From Streptomyces palmae (GTDB lineage: Bacteria; Actinomycetota; Actinomycetes; Streptomycetales; Streptomycetaceae): a stretch of 64,000 nt of DNA. The stretch is taken from assembly GCF_004684805.1 (NCBI RefSeq), contig NZ_SRID01000002.1, positions 1 to 64,000 of the forward strand. Reading direction: 5' to 3'. Numbering within the stretch: position 1 is the stretch's first letter; the number at the start of each line of letters is the position of its first letter. This document shows positions 6,296-22,377 of this stretch, piece by piece. The notes below the pieces were generated by a model, which was given only the letters and a program-made list of their open reading frames with translations, did not search any database and was not told the origin of the DNA. A program made the position numbers and the translations under genes.

Positions 6296-6543
6296 GCCTG
6301 GCTCAGCCGGTTCTGCAGCAGGGTGTGGGCGTCCTGGAAGGTGGTGATGGTGCGGAACTCCTCCTCGGTCAGCTTGACGCCGTACTTCTGCTCCAGCTGC
6401 ACCATGACCTCCAGGGACATCAGCGAGTCCACGCCCAGGTCCTCGACGAAGTTGGCGGTGTCGGTGATCTTGGCCTGCGGGATGTCCAGGGCGTCGGCCA
6501 TGACGCTCCGCAGCTCTTCCCGGTCGATGGTGGCGGCAGACAT
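6292..6543 (-). CDS. Acyl carrier protein (ACP 1)
   Basis: An 83-residue ACP. The phosphopantetheine site is Ser40 in LGVDSLMSLEVM, within the usual four-helix length. The ATG at 6543 is preceded by GGGAC; an in-frame ATG at 6555 would add four residues and is less well placed. Together with the ACP at 14241, it differs from the two HGADSL-type ACPs at 20194 and 20834, so it may serve a distinct step such as starter loading or dehydration-linked shuttling (inference). Confidence 0.92.
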   Translation of the reverse strand: MSAATIDREELRSVMADALDIPQAKITDTANFVEDLGVDSLMSLEVMVQLEQKYGVKLTEEEFRTITTFQDAHTLLQNRLSQA

Positions 6544-6626: not shown

Positions 6627-7724
6627 TCAGGCCGTCGCGCCGTCGAGCAGACGCAGCAGGGCGCAGCCCAGTGCGCCGTCCCGGTCCACCGCGGTGACCA
6701 GCGCCAGCCGTCCCGCCAGGGCGGGGCGGTGCTGGGCCGACACGAGGACCGAGACGATCTGGAAGGCGGCGGCGGCCGCCGAGGTGTCACCGATCAGTTC
6801 GGTGCAGGAGACGCGTTCGGGGGCGGCGCCGGCCAGGACCTCGTCCAGCGCGGCCAGCTCCTGTTCGCCCAGCACGCCGGCGGCCTCCCCGGGGGCCACC
6901 AGGGCCAGGTCCCCGGGGGCGGCCTCGGCGGTGGCCAGCGCGCGGCGCACGCAGTCGGCCAGTGCCGGGCGGATGCCCTCGGCGTCCGCGTACACGCCCA
7001 TCTGCACGGTCAGCACCTCGGCGAGGCCGGGGCGCTCGGGGCCGCCCGCGCCGGCCGGCTCGATCAGCATCATGGCGCAGCCCTCGCCGAGCACCGCCGC
7101 CTCCTCGCCGGTGTCCCGGGAGTGGTGGCCGAGCCAGGCACGGGCGTGGCTGTACTCCTCGGCGGCACCGCACAGCACCGAGCCGGCGCGGCCGGTCAGC
7201 TGGAGGCGGCGCGCGTAGTTGAGGGCCAGCAGGCCCGCGGTGCGGCCGCCGCCGATGGTGGCGTTGGGGCCCTTGAGCTGGTAGCGGATGGCGCAGGCGC
7301 CGGCCGCGCAGTTCATCACGGTGTTGGGGAAGCGCGCCGGGTCCACGAAGAACGGCTTGTCCTCGGTGAGCGAGCTGCGGGTGAAGTCCATCATGCTCTG
7401 CGCGCTGCCGGTGGTGGTGCCCAGGACGACCGAGCGGCGCGGGTCCGGGGCGTCGTCGGCGGCCGGGGCGTCCAGGCCGGGCGCGGTGGCCAGCAGTTCG
7501 CCGACGGTGGCGGCGGCCAGCGCGGTGACCCGGTCCATGGAGCGGGTGCCCTTCTTGCCCAGCACGGCGCGGGGGTCGAAGTCCGGCACGGTGAAGGCGG
7601 CCTTGTCCGGCCCGGCCGGCTCGCCGGCGGCTGCCGGCCGGCCGGCCAGCAGCCCGTCCTGGAAGACCTGGCGGCCGATGCCGAACGGGGATACCGCGGC
7701 CCACGCGGAGATGACGGTGTTCAC
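6627..7724 (-). CDS. Chain length factor (KS-beta), pair 1
   Basis: A 365-residue ketosynthase-fold protein. Where FabF-type enzymes have the nucleophilic Cys after YxLKGPN, this reads LKGPNATIGGGRTAG with no Cys, which marks a CLF. It is translated from a GTG overlapping the stop of the KS upstream (GTGA). CLFs pair with KS subunits and set chain length by shaping the tunnel. It is a clear paralogue of the CLF at 22395 (same length; shared VLGKKGTR, MDRVT, CGAAEEY and DRDGALGCALLR segments). Confidence 0.88.
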   Translation of the reverse strand: MNTVISAWAAVSPFGIGRQVFQDGLLAGRPAAAGEPAGPDKAAFTVPDFDPRAVLGKKGTRSMDRVTALAAATVGELLATAPGLDAPAADDAPDPRRSVVLGTTTGSAQSMMDFTRSSLTEDKPFFVDPARFPNTVMNCAAGACAIRYQLKGPNATIGGGRTAGLLALNYARRLQLTGRAGSVLCGAAEEYSHARAWLGHHSRDTGEEAAVLGEGCAMMLIEPAGAGGPERPGLAEVLTVQMGVYADAEGIRPALADCVRRALATAEAAPGDLALVAPGEAAGVLGEQELAALDEVLAGAAPERVSCTELIGDTSAAAAAFQIVSVLVSAQHRPALAGRLALVTAVDRDGALGCALLRLLDGATA

Positions 7725-9001
7725 GACTGGTAGCTCCCGAAGATCACCACGGCGTTGTTGCCGCCGAAGGCCAGGCCGTTGTTCTGCACGATGCGCAGGT
7801 CCGCCTCGACCGCCTCGTTGGGTACGCAGTCCACCGCGCACTCCGGGTCGGTCTGGACGTGGTTGATGGTCGGCGGGATGAAGCCTTCCTTGATGGCCAG
7901 GGCGCAGCCGATGGCGGCGAGCGCGCTGGCCGCGCCCATGGCGTGCCCCAGCATCGACTTCATCGAGATGGTGCGCGGCACGGCGTCGCCGAAGACCGAG
8001 CGGATGGCCCCGACCTCGGTGGTGTCGTTGGCCTTGGTGCCGGTGCCGTGCGCGGAGATGAAGTCCACCTCCTCGGGCTTGACGCCGGCGTCGTCCAGGG
8101 CCAGCCGCATGCAGTCGGCCACGCTCTCGCCGAACGGGGCGACCTGGTGGTAGGCGTCGCAGTTGAGGCCGTAGCCGAGCACCTCGGCGTAGATCCGGGC
8201 GCCGCGCGCCAGGGCCGACTCCAGGCTCTCCAAGACCAGGATGCCGGCGCCCTCGCCGGTGAGGATGCCCTTCCGGTCGGCGTCGAAGGGCTGGCACTTC
8301 TCGGGTGCGATGGTGCCCAGCCGGTAGAAGCCGGTGAAGGTCTTGCGGCAGACGGCGTCCGCGCCGCCGCACAGCGCGATGTCGGCCTCGCCGATGCGGA
8401 TGGCGTCCAGGCCGTAGCCGATGGCGTAGTTGCCGGCCGCGCAGGCGGTGGGCACGGTGACGGCCTCGGCCCGGGTGAGTTCGAACTCACGGGCCACCGC
8501 GGTCGACAGGTGCCCCACGGGAACCCTGCGGGCGGTGATGGCGTCCATGTGCTCGGGGCCCTCGGCGACCTCGGTCTCCACCAGCCGGTCGAGGTCGTGC
8601 GACTCGCCGTCGGTGGTGCCGACCGAGATCAGGCAGCGGCCGGCGTCCAGCGCCTCCGCGGTCAGTCCGGCGTCGGCGACCGCCATCCGGGCGGCGGCCA
8701 CCGAGAACTGGGTGGCCCGGCCCAGGCGTTGCGGGTCCAGGGTGCGAATATGGCGTTCCGGCTGGAACCCGACGACCTCGGCTCCATTTGCATACTCAAA
8801 GCCGGTGGTGTCATAGAGTGAAATCGGCCGGACTCCGCTGCGACCGGACCGCAGTCCATCGCGGAATTCCTCGACACCGATCCCAATGCTGGACACGGCA
8901 CCGAGTCCGGTCAGTACGACCCTTCTCCCTCGGCCGCGACCTTGAGGTTCCAGCACCTCAGACCCCCCATTGGCTGTGCGTTCCGCTATTGCGCCAGACA
9001 T
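7721..9001 (-). CDS. Ketosynthase alpha (KS), pair 1
   Basis: A 426-residue beta-ketoacyl synthase with a complete triad: Cys187 in VPTACAAGNYA, His318 in ISAHGTGTKAND and His353 in MLGHAMGA. It catalyses decarboxylative condensation of malonyl-ACP with the growing chain together with its CLF. The ATG at 9001 has no obvious ribosome site; a GTG at 8953 preceded by GGGGGG fits better and would shorten the N-terminus by 16 residues. It faces the oxoamine synthase gene across a shared promoter region. It is very close in sequence to the KS at 21133. Confidence 0.92.
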   Translation of the reverse strand: MSGAIAERTANGGSEVLEPQGRGRGRRVVLTGLGAVSSIGIGVEEFRDGLRSGRSGVRPISLYDTTGFEYANGAEVVGFQPERHIRTLDPQRLGRATQFSVAAARMAVADAGLTAEALDAGRCLISVGTTDGESHDLDRLVETEVAEGPEHMDAITARRVPVGHLSTAVAREFELTRAEAVTVPTACAAGNYAIGYGLDAIRIGEADIALCGGADAVCRKTFTGFYRLGTIAPEKCQPFDADRKGILTGEGAGILVLESLESALARGARIYAEVLGYGLNCDAYHQVAPFGESVADCMRLALDDAGVKPEEVDFISAHGTGTKANDTTEVGAIRSVFGDAVPRTISMKSMLGHAMGAASALAAIGCALAIKEGFIPPTINHVQTDPECAVDCVPNEAVEADLRIVQNNGLAFGGNNAVVIFGSYQS

Positions 9002-9215: not shown

Positions 9216-10661
9216 ATGACAATCGATGCAGCCGGAGCGCCGACCATGTCACTGCGCGCGGAAGGCGTGTCCGAGGCGGTCAACGGGGGCGCCGCGGATC
9301 CGCTGACCAGCAATGACACCAGCCCTCTTTCCCATATAGCGGAGAGTGCGGCGGCCGACGAGCGGGACAACGACCGCCTCGCCAAACTGCTGCGACTGCT
9401 GGAGCAGCTCGGCGACGACCAGGCGGACGAGCTGCTGCGCTATGGCTCCTCCCTGAAATGGCAGTTCAGCCAGTTCGCCGAGGGACTGCGCCGCTTCGGT
9501 GTCACCAACGTGCCGTTCACCGAGGGCATGTCGGGTGTTCCCGAGGTCACGATGGACGGCCGCAGCCTTGTCAACTTCGCGCCGGTCAACTTCCTCAACC
9601 TGCACAGCAGGCCGGATGTCATGGACCATTTCGTGAACGCGGCCCGCACCTTCGGCCTGGCCACCGGCGGCGCCCGGATCAGCCAGGGCGTGACCCGTCC
9701 GCACCTGGACATGGAGGCCGAACTCTGCCGCATCCTGGGCAAGGAGCGGGCGATCAGCTACGCCACCGGCACGCTGGCCAACATCGGTTTCGTCCACGCC
9801 ATGACGAACCGGCAGGCCTGGTCGGAGGATATGCAGATCGACCACACCGACGTGGTCTTCGTCTACGACCGGGACAACCACTGGAGCCTGTGGAAGGCCG
9901 CCGAGAAGCTCGAATACGGCAGGCAGCTCTTCTCCTTCAAGCACAACGACGTCGCGCACCTGGAATCGATCCTCAAGCGCCTCCAGCGCAAGCGGGTCGT
10001 GGTGGTGTTCGAGAGCGTCTACTCGGTGGACGGCTCGGTCGCCCCGATGCACGAAATCGTCGATCTGTGCGAACGCTACGGCGCACTCACCTATGTGGAT
10101 GACGCCAACGGATTCCTGGTGTACGGCGCCGAGCACCGGCCCTTCGCCAAGGAGTACGCGGGCATGCTCCGCGCGGACTTCATCATGGTGTCGCTGAAGA
10201 AGTCGGTGGGCCTGGAGGGCGGCATGATCGCCGGCCCGAACGACGCCATCTGGGCCATGGAGGCACTGGGCATGGCCTCGGTCTTCAGCGCCCAGGTGCA
10301 GCCGCCGACGGCGGCCACCGCGGCCTACACCATGAAGCTGCTGACCCAGCACGAGCCGGAGATCGTCGACAACTACCTGGCGAAGGTCGCCGATTTCCGC
10401 CAACTGCTCACCGACGAGGGCTTCCAGCTCAATCCGACGCCCTCCATCATGACCTCGATCGATGTCGGCCCGGAGTCCAAGGGCATGGCCATCAGGGACG
10501 CGTTCCTGGAGCGCGGATACCGCATTCCGGTGTATCTCTTCCCGGCCGCCCGCCGCAACCACGCCACGATGCGGCTCATCCTCAACGCCACCCACACCGA
10601 CGAGCACATCCTGGGCTTCCTGGGGCTGATGAAGGAGTTCCGCGACAAGTTCGACATCTGA
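9216..10661 (+). CDS. PLP-dependent alpha-oxoamine synthase family enzyme
   Basis: A 481-residue fold-type I PLP enzyme related to 8-amino-7-oxononanoate synthase, 5-aminolevulinate synthase and serine palmitoyltransferase. The lysine motif is SLKKSVGLEGG, with Lys329 the likely Schiff-base residue. Asp295 in VDDANG should bind the pyridine nitrogen, but the usual His two residues after the DD/DE is Asn298. FKHNDVAHLE matches the family HND element. The family couples an amino acid to an acyl thioester with loss of CO2. Inferred role: release of the polyketide from ACP as an alpha-amino ketone. About 85 extra N-terminal residues precede the catalytic fold. The ATG at 9216 follows GGGGGA. It is monocistronic, with a strong terminator after it. 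Confidence 0.88.
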   Translation: MTIDAAGAPTMSLRAEGVSEAVNGGAADPLTSNDTSPLSHIAESAAADERDNDRLAKLLRLLEQLGDDQADELLRYGSSLKWQFSQFAEGLRRFGVTNVPFTEGMSGVPEVTMDGRSLVNFAPVNFLNLHSRPDVMDHFVNAARTFGLATGGARISQGVTRPHLDMEAELCRILGKERAISYATGTLANIGFVHAMTNRQAWSEDMQIDHTDVVFVYDRDNHWSLWKAAEKLEYGRQLFSFKHNDVAHLESILKRLQRKRVVVVFESVYSVDGSVAPMHEIVDLCERYGALTYVDDANGFLVYGAEHRPFAKEYAGMLRADFIMVSLKKSVGLEGGMIAGPNDAIWAMEALGMASVFSAQVQPPTAATAAYTMKLLTQHEPEIVDNYLAKVADFRQLLTDEGFQLNPTPSIMTSIDVGPESKGMAIRDAFLERGYRIPVYLFPAARRNHATMRLILNATHTDEHILGFLGLMKEFRDKFDI

Positions 10662-10810: not shown

Positions 10811-11782
10811 TCAGCGCGCGGTGGGCCGAATACGGGCCAGCGTCACCTGGCCGCTGCCGCCCGCCGCGACCACCAGGCACTCCTCGCCGTCCCGCAGCGC
10901 CCGCGCCACCTCGGTCATCGGTCCCAGGCAGCCCGGTCCGGCGTGCGTCCGGTCCAACCGGCCGCCCTGCGCGCCGAGCGCGGCGGCCAGCGCGTCGGCC
11001 ACCGGGGAGGCGTCGGCCACCAGCCGTACCGGCAGCCCGGCGGCGCCCTGGTCCGGCAGCCCGAGCGCGGCCAGCGCCCCGGCCAGCAGCCGCTCGGTGT
11101 GCCCGGCCGCCCGCGCCGGATCCGCCGCCGCGGTGGGCGACAGGAAGAAACCGCGGGCCGCCACCCGGCCGTACTCCGTCGCGCCCCGCTCCCGGACCCG
11201 CTCGGCCGGCTCCAGGACCAGCACCACCGCGCCGTCCTCGGAGCTCGCCGCCTCCGGCTCCACCGGGTCCAGCGGCTCCTCGGTGACCCCGAGCACCAGC
11301 CAGGACGCCCGGCCCAGGGCGACCGCGCGCAGCCCCGTCTCGATCGACTCCAGACCGGCCACCCGGGGGGTGTGCAGCGCCAGGCTGAAGCCCTTGAGCC
11401 CGTGCTCGATGGCCAGCTTGCTGAGGAAGAGGTTGACCGAGAAGTACGGGGCGGTGGTGGGCCGCAGCCCGCCCAGCCCCTTCTCCAGCACCGCCCGGTC
11501 GATGACGCCGTGCAGGTCGGAGGCGCAGTTGTTGGACCCCAGCGCCACCCCGCAGTCCAGCCCGCGCTGCTCCGGCACCTCGGCCAGGGCCGCGTCCGCC
11601 AGCGCCCGCTTGCCGGCGCCCAGCAGATAGCGGGAGGAGCGCGGCACGTACTTGTAGCCGGACGGGCCCAGCTCGGTGCGGTAGTCGAACCACTCCCGCT
11701 CCGCGTCCGCGGGCGGCAGCACCTCGCCGATCCCGGAGACGACGAGCTCGGTGGCGTCGGTGTGCCCCGTCGTGGTCGCCAT
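10811..11782 (-). CDS. Chain length factor (KS-beta), pair 2
   Basis: A 323-residue ketosynthase-fold protein, shorter than usual for a CLF. The active-site segment reads GFSLALHTPRVAGLES, so the Cys is absent and the protein is a CLF-like partner rather than a condensing enzyme. The ATG at 11782 starts 2 bases after the stop of the partner KS. It is the last gene of the long leftward operon. It is strongly diverged from pairs 1 and 4, which suggests a different step or chain-length window. Confidence 0.8.
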   Translation of the reverse strand: MATTTGHTDATELVVSGIGEVLPPADAEREWFDYRTELGPSGYKYVPRSSRYLLGAGKRALADAALAEVPEQRGLDCGVALGSNNCASDLHGVIDRAVLEKGLGGLRPTTAPYFSVNLFLSKLAIEHGLKGFSLALHTPRVAGLESIETGLRAVALGRASWLVLGVTEEPLDPVEPEAASSEDGAVVLVLEPAERVRERGATEYGRVAARGFFLSPTAAADPARAAGHTERLLAGALAALGLPDQGAAGLPVRLVADASPVADALAAALGAQGGRLDRTHAGPGCLGPMTEVARALRDGEECLVVAAGGSGQVTLARIRPTAR

Positions 11783-11784
11783 GG

Positions 11785-12990
11785 TCAGTCCCGCCCTTCC
11801 GCCTGCTCGACGCCCTCGAAGAGCAGCGAGATGTTGTGCCCGCCGAAGGCGAAGGCGTTGATCATCACCAGCCGCCCCCGCGGGGTGGTCGGCTCGGTCG
11901 GCAGCCACACCTCGCACTCCGGGTCCAGGTCGTCCACCGGCAGGTTCGGCGGCAGCTGCCCGTGTTCCAGCGCCAGCACCGCGGCCACCGCGGACAGCGC
12001 TCCGGAGGCACCGCCGGTGTGCCCGAGCAGCGCCTTGAGGCTGTACAGCGGCACCTTGGCGGCGTCCGGGCCGAACACCTGGCGCAGCGCGGCGCACTCG
12101 GTGACATCGCTGAGCTGGGTGCCGGTGGCGTGCGGCAGCACGGCCGAGACCTGGTCGGCGGTGCGTCCGGCGGCCTCCAGGGCCAGCCGCATGGCGCGGG
12201 CGATCTGCACGCCGCTGGGGTCCGGGGCGGTGGGGTGGTGGGCGTCGCAGGTCCAGCCGGAGCCCACCAGGCGGGCCAGCGGGCGGGCGCCCCGGGCCCG
12301 GGCGGACTCCTCCGACTCCAGGACCATCGCCGCGGCGCCCTCGGCCTGCCCGGTACCGCGCCGCAGCCGGTGGAAGGGGCGGCAGCCGTCCGGGTCCACG
12401 GCGCCCAGCCGCTGGAAGCTGCCCATGGTGACCCGGGAGTACATCTCCACCCCGCCGGCGATCACCACGTCCGCGTCCCCGGCCCGGATCAGGTCCGCGC
12501 CCATGGCCAGCGCGTAGGCGCCGCCCGCGCAGGCGTTGGAGAGGCTGCCGGCCGCCGCCTGCGCCCCGTACTCCTCGGCGAGCACCGCGGCGGTGGCGTA
12601 GCCGGGCACCCAGCCCTCGGTCGGGGTGGCGGTGCCGGCCCGCCACTCCTCCACCTGCTGGGCGTCGGAGACCCCGCTGGCGAAGAACACCGCGGTCCGT
12701 CCGGCCGGCGCGCCCGGCACCAGCCCGGCCTGGGCGGCGGCCTCCGCCGCGGCCTGCCGGGCGGCCCGGGTGGCCCGGCCCAGCGGCAGGCCCAGCGCCC
12801 GTCGCGGCTGATCCGGCACGACCCCGTCCGGCACCATCTGGCATAAGGTCAGCGGTGTCAGCTCCGGCCCGAGCTCCTCGGCCGGAGTGGGCGCCGTTCT
12901 GCGGCGCTCGCGCATGGCGTCCCAGAACGCCGCCGTACCGCCACCGAAGGACGACAGCGCCCCCGTCCCGGTGACCACGATCCCGGTCAT
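11785..12990 (-). CDS. Ketosynthase alpha (KS), pair 2
   Basis: A 401-residue KS with an intact triad: Cys154 in SNACAGGAYA, His287 in LPHATGTQLSD and His324 in LLGHTGGASG. The ATG at 12990 is preceded by GAGGGGGAAAG; a TTG one codon upstream is less likely. The NACAGG environment and overall sequence differ from the TACAAG type of pairs 1 and 4, so it probably accepts a different acyl substrate. About 110 non-coding bases separate it from the DsrE-like trio upstream. Confidence 0.9.
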   Translation of the reverse strand: MTGIVVTGTGALSSFGGGTAAFWDAMRERRRTAPTPAEELGPELTPLTLCQMVPDGVVPDQPRRALGLPLGRATRAARQAAAEAAAQAGLVPGAPAGRTAVFFASGVSDAQQVEEWRAGTATPTEGWVPGYATAAVLAEEYGAQAAAGSLSNACAGGAYALAMGADLIRAGDADVVIAGGVEMYSRVTMGSFQRLGAVDPDGCRPFHRLRRGTGQAEGAAAMVLESEESARARGARPLARLVGSGWTCDAHHPTAPDPSGVQIARAMRLALEAAGRTADQVSAVLPHATGTQLSDVTECAALRQVFGPDAAKVPLYSLKALLGHTGGASGALSAVAAVLALEHGQLPPNLPVDDLDPECEVWLPTEPTTPRGRLVMINAFAFGGHNISLLFEGVEQAEGRD

Positions 12991-13102: not shown

Positions 13103-13486
13103 TCACAGGAACCACACGTGCTGGTAGGTGTCCCAGCTCAGCGCCAGCCGCGTGCTGTCCACGCAGCGCACCCCCGGCAGCAGCCGGTCCTCGTCCAGGC
13201 CGAGGGCGGTCAGGCCGTGCCGGTCCACGTAGACCGCCACGCCCTCCTCGACCAGGGTGGCCACCGAAGCGCGCGGGTCAGGCGCGGTGATCTCCGGCAG
13301 GCCGGCCAGCTTCAGCCGGGGTGGTGCGGACTCGGCGGTCACCGCGGCGGTCACCGCGGTGCCGCGCAGCACCAGGTCGATGGTGCCGAGCTGGCCGCGG
13401 AAGGCCAGCACGCCGTAGAGCGCGTCGAAGAACTGGGCCTCCAGCGTGCCCCGGTAGCCGCGGTCGATCACGGCCAGGTACGTCAT
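13103..13486 (-). CDS. DsrF/TusC-like small protein, third of a DsrE-family trio
   Basis: A 127-residue alpha/beta protein. The N-terminus (MTYLAVIDRGYRGTLEAQ), the mid-segment LVEEGVAVYVDRHGLTALGL and the end (SWDTYQHVWFL) follow the plan of DsrF/TusC, which close with a YDxxxxF-type strand. It has one Cys, outside the catalytic position of DsrE, as expected for a non-catalytic TusC-type subunit. It starts 3 bases after the stop of the Cys-containing DsrE-like gene. Family members form DsrE2F2H2/TusBCD hexamers that carry persulfide sulfur. Function in this cluster is unknown. The assignment is from pattern only. Confidence 0.6.
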   Translation of the reverse strand: MTYLAVIDRGYRGTLEAQFFDALYGVLAFRGQLGTIDLVLRGTAVTAAVTAESAPPRLKLAGLPEITAPDPRASVATLVEEGVAVYVDRHGLTALGLDEDRLLPGVRCVDSTRLALSWDTYQHVWFL

Positions 13487-13489
13487 CGC

Positions 13490-13903
13490 TCAGGCTCCCC
13501 CGATGTACACGGTCCGGTCGGCCGCGGCGACCGTGGCGGCCAGCCGGGCGTCGGACCTGAGCCGGACCTCGGGGATGTGCCGGCCCGCGCCGCGCTCGGC
13601 GCTGCACGCGGTGCAAACGATCCAGGCCAGCCGCTTCTCGGAGGCGTCGATCATGCCGCGGATGACGGCGGCGGCCGAGGGCGCGACCACCCGCGGGTCG
13701 AGCAGGTGGGCCGGCTTGCGGTCGCCCAGCGACTCCTGGGTGAGCATGGTGTTGTAGCCGCAGGCCCAGATCCGTACCGTCCGCCCCTGGTCGAGGACGG
13801 CCTGGGCGAGCCGCAGCGCGGTGGTGAGCGCGTCGTTCACATGCGGCGGGGCGGTCAGGACGATCAGCAGGTCCCAGTGCCTGCGGGCGACGGTGGCCGC
13901 CAT
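13490..13903 (-). CDS. DsrE/TusD-like protein with candidate sulfur-carrier cysteine
   Basis: A 137-residue protein with a DsrE/TusD outline: LLIVLTAPPHVNDALTTALR (residues 12-31) matches the opening strand and helix, RTVRIWACGYNT the second strand, and LAWIVCTACSAERG (about 92-105) the strand-loop where DsrE/TusD carry the persulfide cysteine. It is thus the likely catalytic member of the trio. The ATG at 13903 overlaps the upstream stop by one base. No TusE, cysteine desulfurase or ThiS/MoaD partner is visible nearby, so any sulfur source would lie elsewhere. Both a sulfur-transfer and a purely structural role remain possible. Confidence 0.65.
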   Translation of the reverse strand: MAATVARRHWDLLIVLTAPPHVNDALTTALRLAQAVLDQGRTVRIWACGYNTMLTQESLGDRKPAHLLDPRVVAPSAAAVIRGMIDASEKRLAWIVCTACSAERGAGRHIPEVRLRSDARLAATVAAADRTVYIGGA

Positions 13904-14244
13904 CAGTGCCACACCACCCGGGTGCCGGCCGCGGTCAGTTCGGCCGCCACCCGGTCCATGTCCACCACGCTCGCCGCGTCGGCGAGGACCCGCCGCGGGA
14001 TGGCGCGCTGGGCGAGGGTGAATCCGTCCACCCACAGCTCGCCGCCGGCCGCGGTGAAGGCCGCGACCGGCTCACTGGCGCCGCGCACGGCGGCGGCGAC
14101 GGCGTCCGCCACCAGGAACAGGCGCACCCGCCCGCCCGCCGCCGCCAGCGCCAGCGCGTCGCCGACGAACCGCTCCGAGGCATGGCCGACCTGCGATTCC
14201 ACCAGCAGGTACGACATGGTCGGCGCGGTCATCGGCCGGGTCAC
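13903..14244 (-). CDS. DsrE-family small protein without cysteine, first of the trio
   Basis: 113 residues. ERFVGDALALAAAGGRVRLFLVADAV, abbreviated here as the FVGDALAL and RVRLFLVADAV segments, matches the DsrE-family strand-helix-strand core. A GGELWVDGFTLAQRAI loop occupies the place where many DsrE-like proteins have a CPxC motif; no Cys remains. It ends TAAGTRVVWH. The GTG at 14244 overlaps the stop of the ACP gene (GTGA); an ATG at 14217 is a good alternative start. Direct coupling to an ACP is the clue that the trio acts on, or with, a carrier-bound intermediate (inference). Confidence 0.58.
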   Translation of the reverse strand: MTRPMTAPTMSYLLVESQVGHASERFVGDALALAAAGGRVRLFLVADAVAAAVRGASEPVAAFTAAGGELWVDGFTLAQRAIPRRVLADAASVVDMDRVAAELTAAGTRVVWH

Positions 14245-14492
14245 ACGCTCGCGAGCTTCCGCTGCAGCAGCTCGTGGACATCGCGCAGCCGCTGCACGTC
14301 GGTGATCTCGTGCGACTCGATCTTGATCTCGTAGGTGCGCTCCAGGATCACCGCCATCTCCAGCGCCAGCAGCGAGTCCGCGCCCAGGTCCTCGATGAAG
14401 TGGGCGTCCTCGGTCACCTCGTCCGAGGCGATGTCCAGAACGTCGGCGATCAGCTCGCGCAGCTCACCGATCTCGATGCTCTTCTCGGCCAT
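14241..14492 (-). CDS. Acyl carrier protein (ACP 2), coupled to the DsrE-like trio
   Basis: An 83-residue ACP with phosphopantetheine Ser40 in LGADSLLALEMA. The ATG at 14492 has an AAGGAG ribosome site. It is the first gene of the block ACP - DsrE-like x3, and its stop overlaps the next start. It is distinct from the HGADSL ACPs, so it is a dedicated carrier candidate for whatever the trio does. Confidence 0.92.
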   Translation of the reverse strand: MAEKSIEIGELRELIADVLDIASDEVTEDAHFIEDLGADSLLALEMAVILERTYEIKIESHEITDVQRLRDVHELLQRKLASV

Positions 14493-14654: not shown

Positions 14655-15380
14655 CTACGCACAGCCGCCCGCGATGCCGCCGTCGCCACCCGGGGTGACC
14701 AGTTCCGGCAGCTCGATGAACTCGCCCAGCCAGGACTGGTCGATGTCGCCCTCCACCGGGTCCTCGCCGCGGACCGCCGCCACATAGGGCTTGAGCCGGT
14801 CCACCCCGAAGAACTTGTTGAAGCCATGCACGAAGAACGGCACGCCGAACAGGCCGTCCTTGTACGAGCGGGTCAGCGCCGCGGCGCCGCGGGCGCGGAT
14901 CTCGTCGTCGTCCGAGGCGTTGGCCACGGCGTCCGCGTCCAGGCCCAGCTGCTCGGCCACCGCGGCGATGGTCGCCCGCTCGGTGATGTCCTTGCCCTCG
15001 ATCCACCGGGCCCGGTAGACCGCGTCGATGTACTCGCGGCCCTTGCCGGCGTCCTGGGCCACCAGGTAGCCCAGGTGGGAGATCTCCCAGTTGGGGTCGC
15101 GGTCCACCGGGACGGTCATCTCGAAGCCGCGCAGCTTCGACAGGCGGCGCAGGTCCTGGAGGATGTAGAAGTTCTTCGCCCGCGACATCGGGACGATGGG
15201 CAGCTCCACCCCGTCCGCGTCGAGCAGCTTCTGGGTCACCGCGTCCGGCTCCCAGAACGGGATCCACTCGATGGCGTCGGCGACGTCCGGGTAGCGCTCG
15301 GTCAGGTCCCGGTAGGCGAAGTAGGCGTAGGGGCTGCGCAGCGAGAAGTACCAGCGCGGCTGCTTCTTGGGCTTGGCCAT
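14655..15380 (-). CDS. DsbA-fold (HCCA isomerase/GST-kappa-like) protein
   Basis: A 241-residue thioredoxin-fold protein. [15 protein letters not shown] at residues 13-27 matches the 2-hydroxychromene-2-carboxylate isomerase pattern with Ser in place of the DsbA cysteine. [21 protein letters not shown] near residues 180-200 gives the cis-Pro substrate-binding loop and C-terminal contact. The family isomerises double bonds, usually with glutathione. Related proteins occur in highly reducing type II PKS clusters, so cis/trans isomerisation of a polyenoyl-ACP is the likely role (inference). The ATG at 15380 follows AAGGAG. Confidence 0.8.
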
Positions 15381-15399: not shown

Positions 15400-16161
15400 T
15401 CAGAGGTGGATGCCGCCGTCGATCTGCAGGACGGCGCCGGTGATGTACGAGGAGCGGTCGGCCACCAGGTACGAGACGAGGTCGGCGACCTCCTCCGCCC
15501 GCCCGACCCGCCGCAGCGGGATCTGGGTCTTGGCCTGCTCGATGACCTTGTCGCTGAGCGCGCTGGTCATGTCGGTCTCGATGAAGCCGGGGGCGACCAC
15601 GTTGGCGCGGATGCCGTACCGGCCCACCTCCTTGGCCAGCGACTTGGTGAAGCCGATGATCCCGGCCTTGGAGGCGGCGTAGTTGGTCTGGGTGGCGTTG
15701 CCGTAGACGCCGGCCACCGAGGAGAGGTTCACGATGACGCCGGACTTCCGCTTCATCATCTCGTAGATGACGGTGCGGCAGACGTTGTACGTGCCGTCGA
15801 GGTTGACCTGGATGACCCGCTGCCAGTCCTCGTCCTTCATCAGCAGCAGCGGGTTGTCCCGGGTGATGCCGGCCGAGGTGACCACCGCGTCGATCGGGCC
15901 GAGCGCCGCCTCCACCTCGCCGACCAGGGCGCGGACCTGTGCCATGTCGGAGACGTCGGTCTGCTTGACGAAGGCGCGCCGGCCCAGGTCCACCACCTCC
16001 TTCTCCAGCGAGGCGGCGGCTTCGGCGTTGCCCGCGTAGCAGATCGCCACGTCGAAGCCGTCCGCGGCCAGCCGCAGCGCGACCGCCCGGCCGATGCCCC
16101 GGCTGCCGCCGGTGACCAGCGCGACCTTGGCGGTCTCCGCCGCCTGTTCGGTCGCGGTCAC
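15400..16161 (-). CDS. FabG-type 3-oxoacyl-ACP reductase (ketoreductase)
   Basis: A 253-residue SDR enzyme. The NADPH motif TGGSRGIG is at 17-24, and the catalytic residues Asn120, Ser148, Tyr161 and Lys165 are all present (YAASK motif). Its FabG-like length and closing GAVLQIDGG motif are typical. It is the only ketoreductase in the cluster, so it probably serves every elongation cycle. The GTG at 16161 overlaps the stop of the double-hotdog gene (GTGA). Confidence 0.93.
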
Positions 16162-17159
16162 TTGGCGTCACCCTCACCGCGGAAGGCTCGGGCGACCCGC
16201 TCGTCCCACTCGACCAGGCGGCCCTTCTTGCCGTTCTCCACCACACCGTAGGCGTGGGTGATCTCGCCGGTGGCGGTCTTCACCAGGCGGCCGTCGCGGA
16301 CCACGTAGTAGTCCAGGCGGGAGGTGTAGAGCAGGTTCTTGAAGATGTTGTCGACCGTGTAGACGACGTACAGGTCCTCTTCCAGGTGCGCCTCGTCCAG
16401 CAGCGTGACGTGCGAACGGGTCACTGCCGGGATCCAGTTGGACTCGTCCAGCAGGGCGCGGATGGAGATGCCCCGGGCGTCCACGAAGCGGTGCTTGGCC
16501 TCCTCCATCAGGCGCAGGTAGCCGGACATCGGCATGCGCTCGAAGAAGTGGACGTAGGGGTAGGGGATGCGGAACTTCCAGGCGTAGGCGTTCTCACCGG
16601 CGGTGAGCTGCTCCAGCACCGGGTCGCGGTCCACGGAGCCGCCGGAGATCAGGGTCTCCGCACCCAGCTCGGCGACCTCGGCGCCCGGCTCGGCGCCGCC
16701 GATGCGCGCCTTGACGAAGCGCTCCAGGCCGGCCGGGACCGGCTTGCGCTCCAGCATCCGGCGGTCGTCCTCGTCGTACCGGAGCACCGCGCGGGCCTTG
16801 GAGGAGACGGCCTTGTTGGGCTCGCCGTCGCGCTCCACGGTGATGGAGACCTTGAAGGTCAGCTCGTCGTCGCCGTCCTTGGTGACCGGCTTGACCTCGA
16901 TGGAGGCCTGGTCGTCCACGATCAGCGCGGTGTTCAGGCGGGAGTCGAGGAAGGTGAGGTCGAAGCCCAGGCCGCACTCCTCGTAGAGCGCGCCGACCGG
17001 CAGGCCGCTGACCCGGAAGTGGTCGATGATGGCCTTCTCGACCAGGTAGTTGACGTGCTTGAAGCCGATGATGGTGCCGATGTTGGCACCCTCGTAGCCG
17101 GGGCTGTGCACCACCGTGGTGGTCTCGGACAGCAGGCGCTTGACAGCGGTATCGGTCAT
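16158..17159 (-). CDS. Double-hotdog acyl thioesterase-like protein
   Basis: 333 residues containing two hotdog units. The first is about residues 20-135 ([20 protein letters not shown] helix region, then [20 protein letters not shown] and [10 protein letters not shown] strands). The second is about 205-330 ([20 protein letters not shown] helix, then [19 protein letters not shown]). Both resemble 4-hydroxybenzoyl-CoA thioesterase/YbgC-type domains. Possible roles are acyl-ACP hydrolysis, editing, or dehydration. The ATG at 17159 overlaps the hydrolase stop (ATGA), so both are made together. Confidence 0.75.
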
Positions 17160-18031
17160 GATCGGTCTCCCATGCAGGCGGAAGGGGCGACGGTCTCGCC
17201 CCGGGTGCGGATCCGGTCGGCGAAGCCGTCGACCAGTGCCGCGAAGTGTTCGCTGTGCTCGGTCATCGGGAAGTGGCCGCAGTCCTCCAGGGTGTGGAGT
17301 TCGGCCTGCGGCAGGAGGCGGGCGAGGGTGGCGGCCTCCTCGGTCGGGGCCATCCGGTCCCCGGCACCGGTGATCACCAGTACCGGCAGGTCCAGCCGGG
17401 CCAGGTCGGCCCAGGGGCTGCGCAGGTACTGCTCGAAGAAGCGGGTCCAGCCGTACGGGCCGACCAGTTCGGCCAGCCGCAGCGCCATGGCCTGGCGCAG
17501 CGCCGGGTTGCCGCGGCCCTGGGACATCACCGCCAGGGAGTCGGCCGTGTGCTCCTGGATCCGGCCCAGCATGCCGGTGAAGGTGGCGTAGTCGAAGTCC
17601 TGCGGCGCGGCCCGGTAGAACGGCGAGACCAGGACCAGGCCGCGGATGCCCCACCGTTCGGGCAGCTCCCGGTCCGGCGCGGTGCCCGGTTCGGCGCCGC
17701 CCAGCAGGTTCAGCAGCAGCAGCGCCGAGAAGGAGTGGGCGACCACGATCTCGCAGCCGCCGGCCGGCTCGGCCGCGGCGTCCAGCGCCTGCCGTATCCA
17801 GTCCAGGGCCGCCGGGTGGTGGTACCAGTTCCCGACACCGCCGCCGCGCCAGGGCAGCTCGGCGGCCCGTACCGGACCGCCCGCGGCGCTGTGGGACAGA
17901 TAGGAGTCCCACAGCGTCGCGCTGTTGGCCAGCCCGTGCAGCATGAGCAGACCGGGCTCCCCGGGGCCGCCCGCTCGCTTGGGGAGCAGTCGGACCGGGG
18001 GCTGCCCGCTCGGCCGCACCGGCTGTGCCAT
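17156..18031 (-). CDS. Alpha/beta hydrolase (possible release or editing thioesterase)
   Basis: A 291-residue alpha/beta hydrolase. The nucleophile is Ser100 in VAHSFSA (an AxSxS elbow variant of GxSxG), with Asp225 in ITGAGDRMAP and His253 in EDCGHFPM. The oxyanion loop is LMLHGLANS. It is coupled to the double-hotdog gene, and 4 bases separate it from the CLF upstream. A type II thioesterase or off-loading role is likely, but an ester or amide hydrolase acting on the product cannot be excluded. Confidence 0.85.
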   Translation of the reverse strand: MAQPVRPSGQPPVRLLPKRAGGPGEPGLLMLHGLANSATLWDSYLSHSAAGGPVRAAELPWRGGGVGNWYHHPAALDWIRQALDAAAEPAGGCEIVVAHSFSALLLLNLLGGAEPGTAPDRELPERWGIRGLVLVSPFYRAAPQDFDYATFTGMLGRIQEHTADSLAVMSQGRGNPALRQAMALRLAELVGPYGWTRFFEQYLRSPWADLARLDLPVLVITGAGDRMAPTEEAATLARLLPQAELHTLEDCGHFPMTEHSEHFAALVDGFADRIRTRGETVAPSACMGDRS

Positions 18032-18035
18032 GGCG

Positions 18036-19004
18036 TCAGTCCTGTCCGGGCCGTATCAGGACGCCGGCCACACCGTCGTCCTCGGCGCCGCAGACCGCCA
18101 GCACCGGGCCGCGCTCACCGGTCTGGTAGCGGCCGGCGGCGGAGGCGAGCTGGAGCACGCCCAGCGCGCCGGAGGTGGTGCCGAACACCGGGGCCAGGTC
18201 CAGCCGGTCGGCGCCGGGCAGCAGCTCCTGGTCCACCTCGGCGCCGCCCTCGGGCAGGTACCAGGCCGCGGGCCGCTCGCCGCCGGCGGTCAGCGCGGCC
18301 GTGCAGGCGGCCACCGAGGAGGTGCGCACCGCACGGACGCACTCGGCCAGCGCCGGGGCCTCGCGCTCGGCCGCGTCGGCCGGACGCTCCAGCACCAGGG
18401 CCGCCGCGCCGTCCAGCACCCGGTCCCCGCCGACCAGCTTGCGGACCACCGGGTTGTCCGGCTCGACACCCACCACCAGGACGTAGCGGGCGCGTCCGGC
18501 GCGCAGCCAGGACAGCGCCCAGCCGACCGCGTCCAGACCGCCGGTGGCGCCGTTGCACACGGTGAGGTTGGGCCCGCGCAGGGTGTACCGGATCGCCACC
18601 TCGGAGGCGACGATGTTGCTGGACAGGTTGGGCGTGACGATCGGGCTGACCAGCCGGGAGCTGCACTCCTTGGCGATGGTGTCCACGACCTCGACGACCG
18701 AGTCCAGGTTGCCGAAGTTGGAGCTGACCACCACGGCGACCTCTTCCGGGGCCACCTTGAGGCTGGTCTTCAGGCCGTGGCCGTCCAGCAGGCCGGCGGC
18801 GATCAGCGCGTCGTGCGCGGCCACCAGGCCGAGCTGGGTGGCCCGGTCCTTGTAGCGCAGGCCCTTCTTGCCGATCCGGGCCGCCGGGTCGACCGGCTCG
18901 GGGGCCGGGTCGACGGTGCTGAGCAGGTCCTTGGCGGAGTCCACGCCGGGGAGGGCGAGCCCCACCCCGGTGATGACCGCGCTGCTGGTCACGGAAGTGG
19001 TCAC
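18036..19004 (-). CDS. Chain length factor (KS-beta), pair 3
   Basis: A 322-residue KS-fold protein. After LRGPN the sequence is LTVCNGATGGLDAVG; the position of the catalytic Cys is Gly, so it is a CLF-type subunit. RIGKKGLRYKDR near residue 43 resembles the GKKGTRxMDR segment of the other CLFs. The GTG at 19004 overlaps the stop of its KS (GTGA). Confidence 0.83.
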   Translation of the reverse strand: MTTSVTSSAVITGVGLALPGVDSAKDLLSTVDPAPEPVDPAARIGKKGLRYKDRATQLGLVAAHDALIAAGLLDGHGLKTSLKVAPEEVAVVVSSNFGNLDSVVEVVDTIAKECSSRLVSPIVTPNLSSNIVASEVAIRYTLRGPNLTVCNGATGGLDAVGWALSWLRAGRARYVLVVGVEPDNPVVRKLVGGDRVLDGAAALVLERPADAAEREAPALAECVRAVRTSSVAACTAALTAGGERPAAWYLPEGGAEVDQELLPGADRLDLAPVFGTTSGALGVLQLASAAGRYQTGERGPVLAVCGAEDDGVAGVLIRPGQD

Positions 19005-20155
19005 GACGCGGCCTCCACAATCGCGACGGCGTTGATGCCGCCGAATCCGAACGCGTTGATCTGGGCGAGCGAGACCTTCGCGGAGGCCTCCTTGTCACGG
19101 ACGATGCGGAAGGTCTCCACCTCGTCCATCGGGTCGTCGAGCGTGATGGTGGGCGCGATCCGACCGGTGCGCATGCTGCCCAGCGCGGTGATCAGCGAGT
19201 GCAGCCCGGAGCCGCCCGAGGTGTGACCGGTCATCGACTTCATGGCGGTCATCACCGGCGAGGTCACGTCCTCGCCGAACACCTCGCCCATGGCCTGCGC
19301 CTCGCCGAGGTCGTTGGCCGGGGTCCCGGTGCCGTGCAGCATCACCAGGTCGATCTCGGCCGGGGCCACCCCCGCCCGGCGGTGGGTCTCCCGCATCACC
19401 TGGGCGATCATCCCGGCGTCCGGGGCGGTGGCGTGGATGGCGTCGCAGTTGACGCCCACCCCGCGCACCCAGCCGCGCGGCGCCGCGCCGTCCCGCGGCG
19501 CGCGACGCAGCACCACGGCCGCGGCGCCCTCGCCCAGGATGGTGCCCATCCGGTTGCGGTCGAAGGGGCGCACCGCGCCGGGCGGTACGGACTGCACCCG
19601 GTCGGCGATGCCGAACATGCTCTCGGTGATCGAGTCGGTGCCGGCCACCACCACGACCTCCGGGCCCGCCTCGTCGGCCAGCAGGTCGGTGGCGAGGGAG
19701 AGCGCGTACAGCGAGGCCGAGCACGCGTTGGAGAAGGTGTGGGTGTTGCTGGCGTTGAACCGCTCCCGCAGCGCGGCACCGAAGTGCAGCCCGGCCGCGG
19801 TCAGCGGGTCGCCGTCACGCCACCAGCGCTCCACCGAACGCAGCTCGCGCAGCCCGGTGCCGACGAGCACCGGGATGTCGCCCAGGTCCTCGTCCATGCC
19901 GGCGTCGGCCAGCGCCTGCGCGACGGCGTCCAGCAGGAAGCCGGTCGCGCGCTGTGCCGTGCTGGGCTGCCCGGCCGCGTCCTTGGTGTCCGCCTGGATC
20001 TCGTACAGCTCACCGGCGGTGTACCAGTCCTTGGTGAACTCGCGCATCGGCGCGAGCCCGGTCCGTCCCGCGCAGAGGCTCTCGAAGATCTCCTCGGCGG
20101 TACGGCCGACGCTGGCCACCGCGCCCACCCCGGTGATGGGCCACCGCTCGGTCAT
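19001..20155 (-). CDS. Ketosynthase alpha (KS), pair 3
   Basis: A 384-residue KS with Cys145 in SNACSASLYA, His274 in LHGTGTPAND and His311 in MTGHTSGGSG, so it is catalytically complete. It is diverged from pairs 1, 2 and 4. The ATG at 20155 lies 38 bases after the HGADSL ACP stop, in the same leftward operon. It could act in starter formation or late elongation (unknown). Confidence 0.92.
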   Translation of the reverse strand: MTERWPITGVGAVASVGRTAEEIFESLCAGRTGLAPMREFTKDWYTAGELYEIQADTKDAAGQPSTAQRATGFLLDAVAQALADAGMDEDLGDIPVLVGTGLRELRSVERWWRDGDPLTAAGLHFGAALRERFNASNTHTFSNACSASLYALSLATDLLADEAGPEVVVVAGTDSITESMFGIADRVQSVPPGAVRPFDRNRMGTILGEGAAAVVLRRAPRDGAAPRGWVRGVGVNCDAIHATAPDAGMIAQVMRETHRRAGVAPAEIDLVMLHGTGTPANDLGEAQAMGEVFGEDVTSPVMTAMKSMTGHTSGGSGLHSLITALGSMRTGRIAPTITLDDPMDEVETFRIVRDKEASAKVSLAQINAFGFGGINAVAIVEAAS

Positions 20156-20193: not shown

Positions 20194-20448
20194 TTACTTG
20201 GCGTCCATGGACTCGCCGACGACCTCGGCGACACCCTTGAGGTTGACCATGCGGGAGAGCTCCGCCTGGTCGATGGTGATCTTGAACTCCTTCTCGAGGG
20301 AGGCCAGGATCTCGATGGCGCGCAGCGAGTCGGCGCCGTGGTCCTCGCGGAACAGGCTGGTCTCGGTGACCTCGTCCTCTTCCAGCTCGAGGATCTCGCA
20401 GACGATCTCCTTGATTTGCTCGAACTGCTCGTCGGTGATGGCAGGCAT
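20194..20448 (-). CDS. Acyl carrier protein (ACP 3), HGADSL type
   Basis: An 84-residue ACP with Ser41 in HGADSLRAIEIL and strong GGAGG before the ATG. It is nearly identical over residues 12-70 to the divergent ACP at 20834, including the whole KEIVCEILELEEDEVT segment, which indicates a recent duplication. First gene of the long leftward operon that runs to 10811. Confidence 0.94.
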   Translation of the reverse strand: MPAITDEQFEQIKEIVCEILELEEDEVTETSLFREDHGADSLRAIEILASLEKEFKITIDQAELSRMVNLKGVAEVVGESMDAK

Positions 20449-20833: not shown

Positions 20834-21085
20834 ATGGCCAATGTCACGGCTGAGCAGGCTGCCACCATCAAGGAGATCGTCTGCGAGATCCTCGAGCTCG
20901 AAGAGGACGAGGTCACCGGCGAGAGCCTGTTCCGTGAGGACCACGGCGCCGACTCGCTGCGCGCCATCGAGATCCTGGCGTCGCTGGAGAAGGAATTCAA
21001 GGTGACGATCGACCAGGCCGAGCTCTCCCGCATGGTCAACCTGAACGGCGTTTACGAGGTCCTGGCCGAGTCCGCCGGCTGGTAG
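20834..21085 (+). CDS. Acyl carrier protein (ACP 4), HGADSL type
   Basis: An 83-residue ACP with Ser41 in HGADSLRAIEIL. The ATG at 20834 follows GAAAGG; a TTG three codons upstream is unlikely. It is the twin of ACP 3 and differs mainly at both ends (AEQAAT and YEVLAESAGW). It lies 47 bases before KS 4, forming a minimal ACP-KS-CLF set read rightward. Confidence 0.94.
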   Translation: MANVTAEQAATIKEIVCEILELEEDEVTGESLFREDHGADSLRAIEILASLEKEFKVTIDQAELSRMVNLNGVYEVLAESAGW

Positions 21086-21132: not shown

Positions 21133-22377
21133 ATGACGACTAATCCAGCCGGCGGCGTACACGACGCCGCACGCAGAGTGGTGCTGACCGGATTCGGAGT
21201 CTTCTCCAGCATCGGAGTGGGCGCCGCAGAGTTCGCCGAGGGCCTGCGCTCGGGACGGAGCGGCGCCAAGCCGATCACCGTCTTCGACACCGAGGGGTTC
21301 GAGCACACCAACGGGTGCGAGATCCGCGGTTTCGAACCCGAGCGCTGGATCCGCAACCTGGACGCGGCCCAGCTCGGCCGGGCCAGCCAGTTCTCGGTCG
21401 CGGCGGCCCGGATGGCCGTCCAGGACGCCGGTCTGGACCCGGCGGACCTGCGCGAGCAGCGCGGCCTGATCTCCATCGGCACCACCGACGGCGAGTCCTG
21501 GGACCTGGACCGCCTGGTGGCCAGCCAACTCGCCAAGGGCTCCGCCGAGATGGACCGCTCCATCGCCGGCCGGATCCGCGCCGGACGGCTGTCCGCCAGC
21601 ATCGCCCAGGAGCTGGGCCTGACCGACGTCGAGGCCGTCACCATCCCGACCGCCTGCGCGGCCGGCAACTACGCCATCGGCTACGGCTTCGACGCGGTGC
21701 GCTCCGGTGAGGCGGACTACGCGCTGTGCGGCGGGGCCGACGCCATGTGCCGCAAGACCTTCGCCGGCTTCTACCGGCTGGGCACCATCGCGCCCGAGCG
21801 CTGCCAGCCCTTCGACATCGACCGCAAGGGCCTGCTCACCGGCGAGGGCGCCGGGGTGCTGCTGCTGGAGACCCTGGAGTCCGCGCTGGCCCGCGGCGCC
21901 CGGATCTACGCCGAGGTGCTCGGCTACGGCCTCAACTGCGACGCCGACCACCAGGTGGCGCCGCTGGAGTCCAGCGTCGCCCGCTGCATGGAGCTGGCGC
22001 TGGAGAACGCGGGCGTCAAGCCCGAGGAGGTCGACCTGATCTCCGCCCACGGCACCGGCACCAAGGCCAACGACGTCACCGAGTCCCGGGCCATCCGCTC
22101 GGTGTACGGCACCACCCCGCCGCGCACCGTCTCGGTGAAGTCCATGCTCGGGCACACCATGGGCGCGGCCAGCGCACTGGCGGCGATCGCCTGCTCGCTG
22201 GCGATCACCCACGGGTTCATCCCGCCCACCATCAACCATGCCTCCACCGACCCCGAGTGCGAGATCGACTGCGTGCCCAACGAGGCCGTCGAGGCCGATC
22301 TGCGGATCGTGCAGAACAACGGGCTGGCCTTCGGGGGCAACAACGCCGTGGTCCTCCTCGGCAGGTACGAGGCGTGA
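21133..22377 (+). CDS. Ketosynthase alpha (KS), pair 4
   Basis: A 414-residue KS with Cys175 in IPTACAAGNYA, His306 in ISAHGTGTKAND and His341 in MLGHTMGA. It shares long stretches with KS 1 (for example TFxGFYRLGTIAPE and ARGARIYAEVLGYGLNCDA), so the two pairs are paralogues within one cluster. The ATG at 21133 is preceded by GGGGGGAAG. Probably one of the two main elongating KSs. Confidence 0.93.
   Translation: MTTNPAGGVHDAARRVVLTGFGVFSSIGVGAAEFAEGLRSGRSGAKPITVFDTEGFEHTNGCEIRGFEPERWIRNLDAAQLGRASQFSVAAARMAVQDAGLDPADLREQRGLISIGTTDGESWDLDRLVASQLAKGSAEMDRSIAGRIRAGRLSASIAQELGLTDVEAVTIPTACAAGNYAIGYGFDAVRSGEADYALCGGADAMCRKTFAGFYRLGTIAPERCQPFDIDRKGLLTGEGAGVLLLETLESALARGARIYAEVLGYGLNCDADHQVAPLESSVARCMELALENAGVKPEEVDLISAHGTGTKANDVTESRAIRSVYGTTPPRTVSVKSMLGHTMGAASALAAIACSLAITHGFIPPTINHASTDPECEIDCVPNEAVEADLRIVQNNGLAFGGNNAVVLLGRYEA

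Follow-up and report, generated by a model that had tools for sequence, protein, structure and literature searches.

Complexes of the DsrEFH and TusBCD type are built of three DsrE-like subunits encoded next to each other, one of which bears the cysteine, and belong to a protein family that is known for moving sulfur. Another close relative, Escherichia coli YchN, is one protein, deposited as 'hypothetical protein'. Here we describe three DsrE-like paralogs, trioE, trioF and trioH (hereafter, the trio), that resemble these proteins but lie in a biosynthetic operon, within a type II polyketide synthase (PKS) cluster of Streptomyces palmae (NCBI RefSeq assembly GCF_004684805.1, contig NZ_SRID01000002.1, positions 1 to 64,000 of the forward strand; this entire stretch of 64,000 nucleotides is referred to as the window). 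Reductive type II PKS clusters of the cinnamoyl/polyene kind in actinobacteria carry the trio as a conserved but optional module, which is typically located beside a gene for an acyl carrier protein (ACP), a chain length factor (CLF) or a pair of ketosynthase (KS) and CLF, and beside dehydratases. The function of the trio probably consists in chemistry on the polyketide chain by means of thiols rather than in the addition of sulfur.

Fold and cysteines of the three subunits

In the 5' to 3' order on the minus strand by which they are named, the three genes occupy positions 13903-14232 (trioE, the first DsrE-like subunit), 13490-13903 (trioF, the middle, DsrE/TusD/YchN-like subunit) and 13103-13486 (trioH, the third DsrE-like subunit); the names are positional and imply no orthology. 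The preceding gene, ACP2 (14241-14492, minus strand), is coupled to the trio, with its stop codon (14243-14241) overlapping a possible GTG start of trioE at 14244 (GTGA); the start of trioE is uncertain, ATG 14232 and ATG 14220 being the other possibilities. This overlap and the junctions of -1 base between trioE and trioF and +3 bases between trioF and trioH had been reported in a preliminary description of the locus, and coordinates and junctions were confirmed on the minus strand. The tight coupling is kept elsewhere: with the start calls made in this analysis, every one of the 68 loci has a gap of between -1 and +2 bases from trioE to trioF.

A Pfam profile search, which the preliminary description had proposed as a check on the DsrE-family outline of the three proteins, yields weak scores of single sequences to DsrE (PF02635), namely 14.2 bits (E 0.052) for trioE, 21.7 bits (2.4e-4) for trioF and 19.4 bits (1.2e-3) for trioH, all under the gathering score of 22.7 bits; the support for the fold comes from family members and structure models. 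At E<=0.1, the trioE family matches PF02635 in 34 of its 45 members (best 3.2e-7) and DsrH in 16 of the 45 (best 1.2e-4), and the top matches of the trioE profile in the PDB, YchN and DsrH, are non-significant (E 0.027 and 0.037; 0.081 and 0.089 in a second run). The trioH family reaches PF02635 at the same threshold in just 8 of 47 members. Structures were predicted, as single chains, for trioF from an alignment with 13 relatives and for trioH from one with 46. The trioF model (predicted local distance difference test score, pLDDT, 88; predicted template modeling score, pTM, 0.82) matches DsrE (2hy5_A) with Z 15.2 and 2.0 A over 116 residues, YchN with Z 14.5 and TusD with Z 14.3, and the trioH model (pLDDT 90) matches YchN with Z 14.9 and DsrH with Z 13.1. 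The fold search gives one row per entry, so that the TusC and DsrF chains are not separately shown; in a library of viral structures, the single match at E<=0.001 is a giant-virus protein (template modeling score 0.53). Judged from relatives and predicted structures, the DsrE fold is secure for trioF and trioH, and trioE appears to be DsrE-like by sequence, with weak matches pointing to DsrH/TusB; the outline proposed initially is thus backed by models for two of the proteins and by sequence for one.

The conserved cysteines are confined to one subunit of the three, trioF, which was the feature tested for a DsrEFH/TusBCD-like complex. In the alignment of trioF, C48 and the C97-x-x-C100 motif (WIVCTACSAERG) are invariant (14 of 14 sequences), and no conserved cysteine is found in the alignments of trioE or trioH, so that the early observation of a cysteine pair kept by the middle protein alone stands and a third cysteine is added to it. 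The CxxC motif, which is of a redox or persulfide type, aligns with CKTC of YchN, an alignment made to YchN that implies no correspondence to Cys78 of TusD. A PDB sequence search with trioF, taken to E 10, matches YchN alone (E 4.5e-4) and aligns a similar C-x-x-C...RG stretch, whereas to the NCBIfam TusD equivalog trioF scores 16.6 bits, far under the cut-off of 89.25, and accordingly is not filed as TusD. Other differences from DsrEFH/TusBCD are the third cysteine, the location in PKS clusters and, seemingly, the gene order, with the DsrH-like protein coming first as far as the weak matches indicate. Correlations between the distance matrices of the subunits (E-F 0.68, E-H 0.69, F-H 0.88) are no higher than those between other genes of the cluster and hence are uninformative beyond co-inheritance.

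Distribution of the trio and its place in described clusters

When 297 genomes of the family were searched with the whole protein, 27 had matches, of which 23 are real; four genomes (G035, G093, G099 and G114) and a second match in G023 were dropped as unrelated on reading, and 24 of the 29 loci examined contain all three genes, the other 5 being false. A scan for sequence patterns, with each species represented by one genome, produced 69 named loci, all actinobacterial by title; the patterns include the CxxC and WxCG stretches, so that motif conservation in this set is partly by construction, and the 24 real loci of the whole-protein search are independent of these patterns. All three genes are present in 68 of the 69 loci, the last one (L102) ending at a contig edge inside the trio. 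Many loci end at contig edges, and KS or CLF is found within flanks of up to 10 kb in 64 of the 69, any of KS, CLF, ACP or dehydratase in 66, genes of non-ribosomal peptide synthetases (NRPS) in 37 and a DsbA-like isomerase in 36. Neighbors were labelled with an in-house gene caller and by clustering with BLAST, and small genes, such as those for ACP, can be missed in this way. The type II PKS setting that had been read from the window alone is borne out by these flanks and by the gene set of the window itself, and the neighborhood survey that had been called for finds the trio in related clusters, so that it is not a one-off. An apparent fusion of trioH with CLF in L086 was rejected, being due to a frameshift in trioH.

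The CTAC subfamily of the trio accounts for 22 of the 69 loci, those of the WS9326A type included, with ACP directly upstream, as in the window, in 18 of the 22; the CRFC/CQFC subfamily accounts for 47. In all six plasmid records found, trioF is annotated as hypothetical protein, as are all three genes in the two tables read. Large linear plasmids in Streptomyces sp. strains NBC_00503 and NBC_00048 (L208, L209) bear trio clusters with the type A gene order given below. The S. palmae genome contains a second trio on contig C781 (L046), beside another KS/CLF set, and a further isomerase-bearing fragment on C338 (L196); the two may be parts of a single gla-type cluster that is divided among contigs. 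In yet another genome (G346, contig C3 at ~3.28 Mb; L198, L199), the trio has ABC transporter genes and two NRPS genes of very large size as neighbors.

Gene order places the trio in published clusters. Two strains, S. calvus T3018 (L066) and S. griseus BIG105 (L067), the latter named as holding a cal-like cluster in the accessible text of PMC6510318, share the order LysR, MbtH, type II thioesterase, membrane protein, CLF, KS, ACP, trio, dehydratase, a protein of 265 aa that matches no Pfam family, ferredoxin, cytochrome P450 and NRPS; a relative (G188), where KS and CLF beside the trio were called as one gene and not as the two seen in L066 and L067, extends this order on to KS and ketoreductase (KR). 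The order matches the cal numbers that could be taken from PMC6510318 and PMC7539972 (MbtH Cal4, NRPS Cal17-19, trans adenylation domains Cal22/Cal23, KS Cal30, KR Cal37), so that the trio is deduced to be cal10-12 of the WS9326A cluster, between the ACP cal9 and the dehydratase cal13. An extra CLF/KS/ACP/trio/dehydratase set distinguishes the WS9326A-type locus, and close homologs of its CLF (E<1e-100) are present in 5 of the 295 genomes of the genus, each ~2 kb from the trio, with 4 weaker matches (35-38% identity) not near it. This cluster differs from that of the window in its peptide product and in that no oxoamine synthase was seen in it, and the cinnamoyl genes are, in the account of its authors, confined to cal24-cal40 (PMC7539972, accessible part). 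In the WS9326A-type locus (L067:10842-11771) and in G348, a genome described below (L202:13471-14415), two hotdog dehydratases are encoded as one product of ~310 aa, and that of the WS9326A type also scores to the cyclizing decarboxylase AmcE, under its cut-off.

A similar deduction holds for globisporamic acid. The S. californicus locus (L113/L188) reads acyltransferase, phosphopantetheinyl transferase, cytochrome P450 (the latter two by motif, by eye), ACP, KS, KS, CLF, hydrolase, hotdog protein, KS, CLF, short-chain dehydrogenase/reductase (SDR), hydrolase, trio, CLF, ACP, two dehydratases, KR, isomerase and hydrolase. Within the assignments of GlaA to GlaW available from PMC9381841, the letters A, B, D-G, J, K and Q-V fit this locus one to one, N-O-P being left over, so that the trio would be glaN-P of the globisporamic acid cluster of S. 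globisporus C-1027. Unlike the cluster in the window, the gla cluster has a FabL-like SDR at the GlaL position and a trio of the CRFC rather than the CTAC subfamily. The FabL-like SDR of gla-type clusters (L113:7872-8666) adjoins KS2/CLF2, contains Y-x6-K and scores 139 bits to FabL, for which the cut-off is 328; its family is represented in 13 loci and also in trio-less clusters. The globisporamic acid paper, in its accessible portion, gives the enoyl reductase as absent, and this SDR may be the overlooked enzyme. Literature searches on DsrE combined with polyketide, Streptomyces or skyllamycin returned no title or abstract that describes the trio, a mention in full texts or supplements being possible. 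The earlier statement that no described polyketide pathway uses such a complex therefore holds in that nobody was found to have assigned the trio a role, and fails in that the trio is, by gene order, cal10-12 and glaN-P.

The type A operon has the order ACP-KS-KS-CLF-hydrolase-4HBT-trio-CLF-ACP-dehydratase-dehydratase-KR-isomerase, and trio-less loci show the same order minus the trio and, in some cases, minus the second ACP; the absence of the trio within 60 kb was checked for L160, L161, L163, L164, L167, L169, L171 and L175. Four other candidates were rejected and left out of the trio-less counts: G443, trio-less in a 20 kb view, has a trio 29 kb away by whole-genome search, and L162, L166 and L168 are isomerase halves of the WS9326A-kind trio genomes G479, G482 and G313. 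The skyllamycin and kitacinnamycin clusters contain KS, CLF, dehydratase, KR and isomerase of the same kind as the trio clusters. By published numbers, not by sequence, skyllamycin (KS Sky17, KR Sky26, isomerase Sky27; PMC6510318, accessible text) fits the trio-less order exactly, with no room for a trio, and kitacinnamycin (kcn4-kcn15, KR kcn14) fits it in length.

The cluster of the window has a trio-less counterpart as well. G374 contains a cluster of the same type, the nearest relative of the one in the window, with the oxoamine synthase included and 43.7-79.5% identity gene by gene; it is nearly colinear with the window, with KS4/CLF4 placed differently and one extra FabZ-like gene, and a whole-genome search found no trio in it. 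G348 shares synteny with the window over the flank at 24-48 kb and holds a reduced cluster in which a fusion of alpha-oxoamine synthase with a 4HBT_2 hotdog protein (788 aa, L202:17218-19584), its end overlapping trioE, is followed by trioE, trioF, trioH, KS and CLF, along with a second KS/CLF, two ACPs, one double-hotdog dehydratase and an exporter-like gene. No KR, enoyl reductase, isomerase, hydrolase or CrtI-like gene was seen in this cluster, and hence the trio depends on neither the isomerase nor the KR nor the CrtI-like enzyme. The association of the trio with ACP, a KS/CLF pair and dehydratase is common to the window, G348 and the WS9326A-type loci. The comparison of G374 and the trio-less order with the window and type A, respectively, shows that the trio is a removable module.

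Possible roles of the trio

The role to which we tentatively commit, with a probability of about 0.28, is that of a thiol-redox complex that acts on ACP-bound chains, most likely saturating C=C bonds in clusters without a recognized enoyl reductase. The three subunits would assemble, like DsrEFH/TusBCD, into a heterohexamer that would dock the acyl-ACP, and the thiols of trioF would perform redox chemistry on the carrier-bound chain with no sulfur left in the product; the trio would thus replace the missing enoyl reductase, or drive that reduction, in selected elongation cycles. Candidate targets are the saturated end of the pentenyl-cinnamoyl chain of WS9326A and a saturated segment that might be made by KS2-CLF2-ACP2 of the window; substrate, electron donor and intermediate are guesses. 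This choice was made because WS9326A, with its (Z)-pentenylcinnamoyl chain (PMC7539972, accessible text), the tail of which is saturated, needs saturation at the pentenyl end and no enoyl reductase was recognized among the labelled genes of the WS9326A-type cluster, because the WS9326A-type trio sits in the extra CLF-KS-ACP-dehydratase set, and because the trio of G348 is the sole non-canonical soluble candidate seen beside parts without reductases. The skyllamycin numbers, which leave no room for the trio, and kitacinnamycin, which fits the trio-less order in length and carries an unsaturated propenyl chain (PMC6510318, accessible text), are in line with this role. Across the few products that can be compared, the presence of the trio and saturated chains coincide in WS9326A, the case of globisporamic acid is confounded by the FabL-like gene, and atratumycin may contradict.

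Numerous observations weigh against C=C reduction. With the FabL-like SDR at the GlaL position, the saturation of globisporamic acid needs no trio, so that this compound, once taken as clean proof of the enoyl-reductase idea, was downgraded. That type A loci are atratumycin- or cinnapeptin-like is suggested, though not shown, by their paired regulators and by L087 (S. viridosporus); if they are, the trio goes with an unsaturated chain because atratumycin, according to the accessible literature, has an unsaturated 3-(2-methylphenyl)propenoyl group (the PKS gene numbers of atratumycin were not found in the accessible part of PMC6835768). G374 retains KS2/CLF2 without the trio, and the KS named kcn7 falls on no KS in the trio-less order. 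No PKS gene was present in the stretch read at 3 of the 69 loci (L088, L091, L112), and none of KS, CLF or ACP was labelled in the stretches read on the two sides (~100 kb and 39 kb) of the trio at 3.28 Mb in G346. The WS9326A-type cluster contains other redox genes to which no role is assigned, namely an SDR at cal21, an FAD reductase and a CrtI-like protein, and primary metabolism could supply a butyryl starter. To our knowledge, no DsrE-fold protein reduces C=C, and we know of no precedent for thiol-only reduction of an enoyl thioester. The skyllamycin chain is a propenyl one. Contrary to this, the accessible text of PMC7539972 states that the pentenylcinnamoyl moiety occurs also in skyllamycins, and if that is right, a trio-less cluster makes a saturated tail. 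Finally, in cispentacin biosynthesis, such a reduction is carried out by the fatty-acid FabI of primary metabolism (PMC10698177, accessible text). A more far-reaching form of the proposal, in which the trio is a new kind of three-subunit DsrE-fold enzyme, with a CxxC/three-cysteine center that reduces carrier-bound double bonds or the beta-keto group, and thus a scaffold for sulfur relay that has become a reductase for editing chains, is doubtful.

Level with C=C reduction stands the equally tentative possibility that the trio is a non- or semi-catalytic adaptor, which docks a particular ACP to KS/CLF or recruits the FabG/FabI of fatty acid synthesis, the cysteines being structural or regulatory. 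The trio adjoins an ACP or CLF gene in most of the architectures seen, the FabI of cispentacin biosynthesis acts on an ACP-bound intermediate, and the G348 cluster is one in which neither KR nor enoyl reductase was seen, all of which would suit an adaptor; however, the three cysteines of trioF, the CxxC included, that are invariant in 14 of 14 sequences are beyond the needs of docking.

Less probable by some distance is a thiol/redox helper of E/Z isomerization or ring aromatization, which would serve the DsbA-like isomerase or replace the CrtI-like oxidase. Among the 295 genomes of the genus, trioF is present in 22 (26 loci) and the DsbA-like isomerase in 59 (68 loci at E<=1e-20, some of which are just 35-45% identical and may be other DsbA-like proteins), and the isomerase is found in all 22 trio genomes (hypergeometric p 1e-17, kinship not corrected), a co-occurrence that also speaks for the trio as a part of cinnamoyl-type clusters. 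At the level of loci, the isomerase lies within 40 kb on the same contig at 20 of the 26 trio loci, with 4 on contigs without one and 2 far away. Actinobacteria use small thiols other than glutathione, and the YsfG-type isomerase is described, in the accessible literature, as glutathione-dependent. The isomerization role, raised in the preliminary description, is nevertheless weakened because the syntenic G348 cluster keeps the trio without an isomerase or CrtI-like gene and because, of the 68 isomerase loci, 20 have a trio at a distance of up to 60 kb on their contig and the other 48 do not (several contigs of the latter are short), and the trio as a substitute for the CrtI-like oxidase was rejected, given that all four combinations of the two occur.

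A true sulfur relay, with the trio passing a persulfide to the carrier-bound chain or to the product of the oxoamine synthase to give a sulfur-bearing metabolite, is very improbable: the DsrE-like fold with one cysteine-bearing subunit of three, the two TusA-like matches on other contigs of the window's genome and the product of the window, which could still hold sulfur, speak for it, but WS9326A is sulfur-free, as is globisporamic acid (C20H30O2 in the accessible literature), the cluster of which bears the trio by gene order, DsrC/TusE (PF04358) has no match in the window's draft genome (E. coli alone matched among 14 control genomes) and no sulfurtransferase or desulfurase was seen among the labelled neighbor families (labels mostly by eye). 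Sulfur insertion, a suggestion of the preliminary description, was therefore judged unlikely as the main role of the trio.

The cluster in the window and the meaning of the trio

Directly downstream of the trio, on the minus strand, lie KS2 (11785-12990; AmcF-like, under the cut-off with 203 of 325 bits) and its KS-like partner CLF2 (10811-11782). Upstream of ACP2, also on the minus strand, are a DsbA-like protein (14655-15380) that by location and family corresponds to the E/Z isomerases of cinnamoyl pathways (YsfG, GlaV and Sky27), a FabG-type SDR ketoreductase with Y-x3-K (15400-16161), a 4HBT_2 hotdog protein (16158-17159), the homolog of which is fused to oxoamine synthase in G348, an alpha/beta hydrolase that is part of the conserved PKS set (17156-17944), CLF1 (18036-19004), KS1 (19001-20155), which clusters with the KS family by BLAST, and ACP1 (20194-20448); ACP4 (20834-21085), KS4 (21178-22377) and CLF4 (22395-23492) follow on the plus strand, these three and ACP1 being assigned by BLAST clustering. 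On the other side, beyond CLF2, the minus strand encodes KS3 (7721-8896), CLF3 (6627-7724), ACP3 (6292-6543, by BLAST clustering), an ApeI-like hotdog dehydratase (5879-6295), a FabA/FabZ-like dehydratase (5379-5882), an MMPL-like exporter named by eye (3007-5280) and a CrtI-like FAD oxidoreductase (723-2453). Taken together, and compared with the accessible parts of PMC6510318 and PMC9381841, the KS/CLF pairs, ACPs, KR, hotdog dehydratases and DsbA-like isomerase fit a cinnamoyl/polyene highly reducing type II PKS. Inside this cluster with its four KS/CLF pairs, the plus strand encodes an alpha-oxoamine synthase-like pyridoxal phosphate enzyme (9246-10661; best NCBIfam match bioF, under the cut-off).

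The DsrE fold and the subunit plan were known already, whereas the setting of the trio and its probable task are not described in the literature found. A three-gene module without an assigned role, which recurs in dozens of biosynthetic clusters, among them, as gene order indicates, the published ones for WS9326A and globisporamic acid, thus gains a fold, a candidate active site and a position in the pathway. The natural pairs with and without the trio, that is, the window and G374, type A and the trio-less order, along with G348, make its role directly testable. If the trio indeed reduces ACP-bound chains or edits them in another way, this would be a second chemistry for a protein family that is known for moving sulfur, and the saturated segments that come from clusters without a recognized enoyl reductase could be explained.

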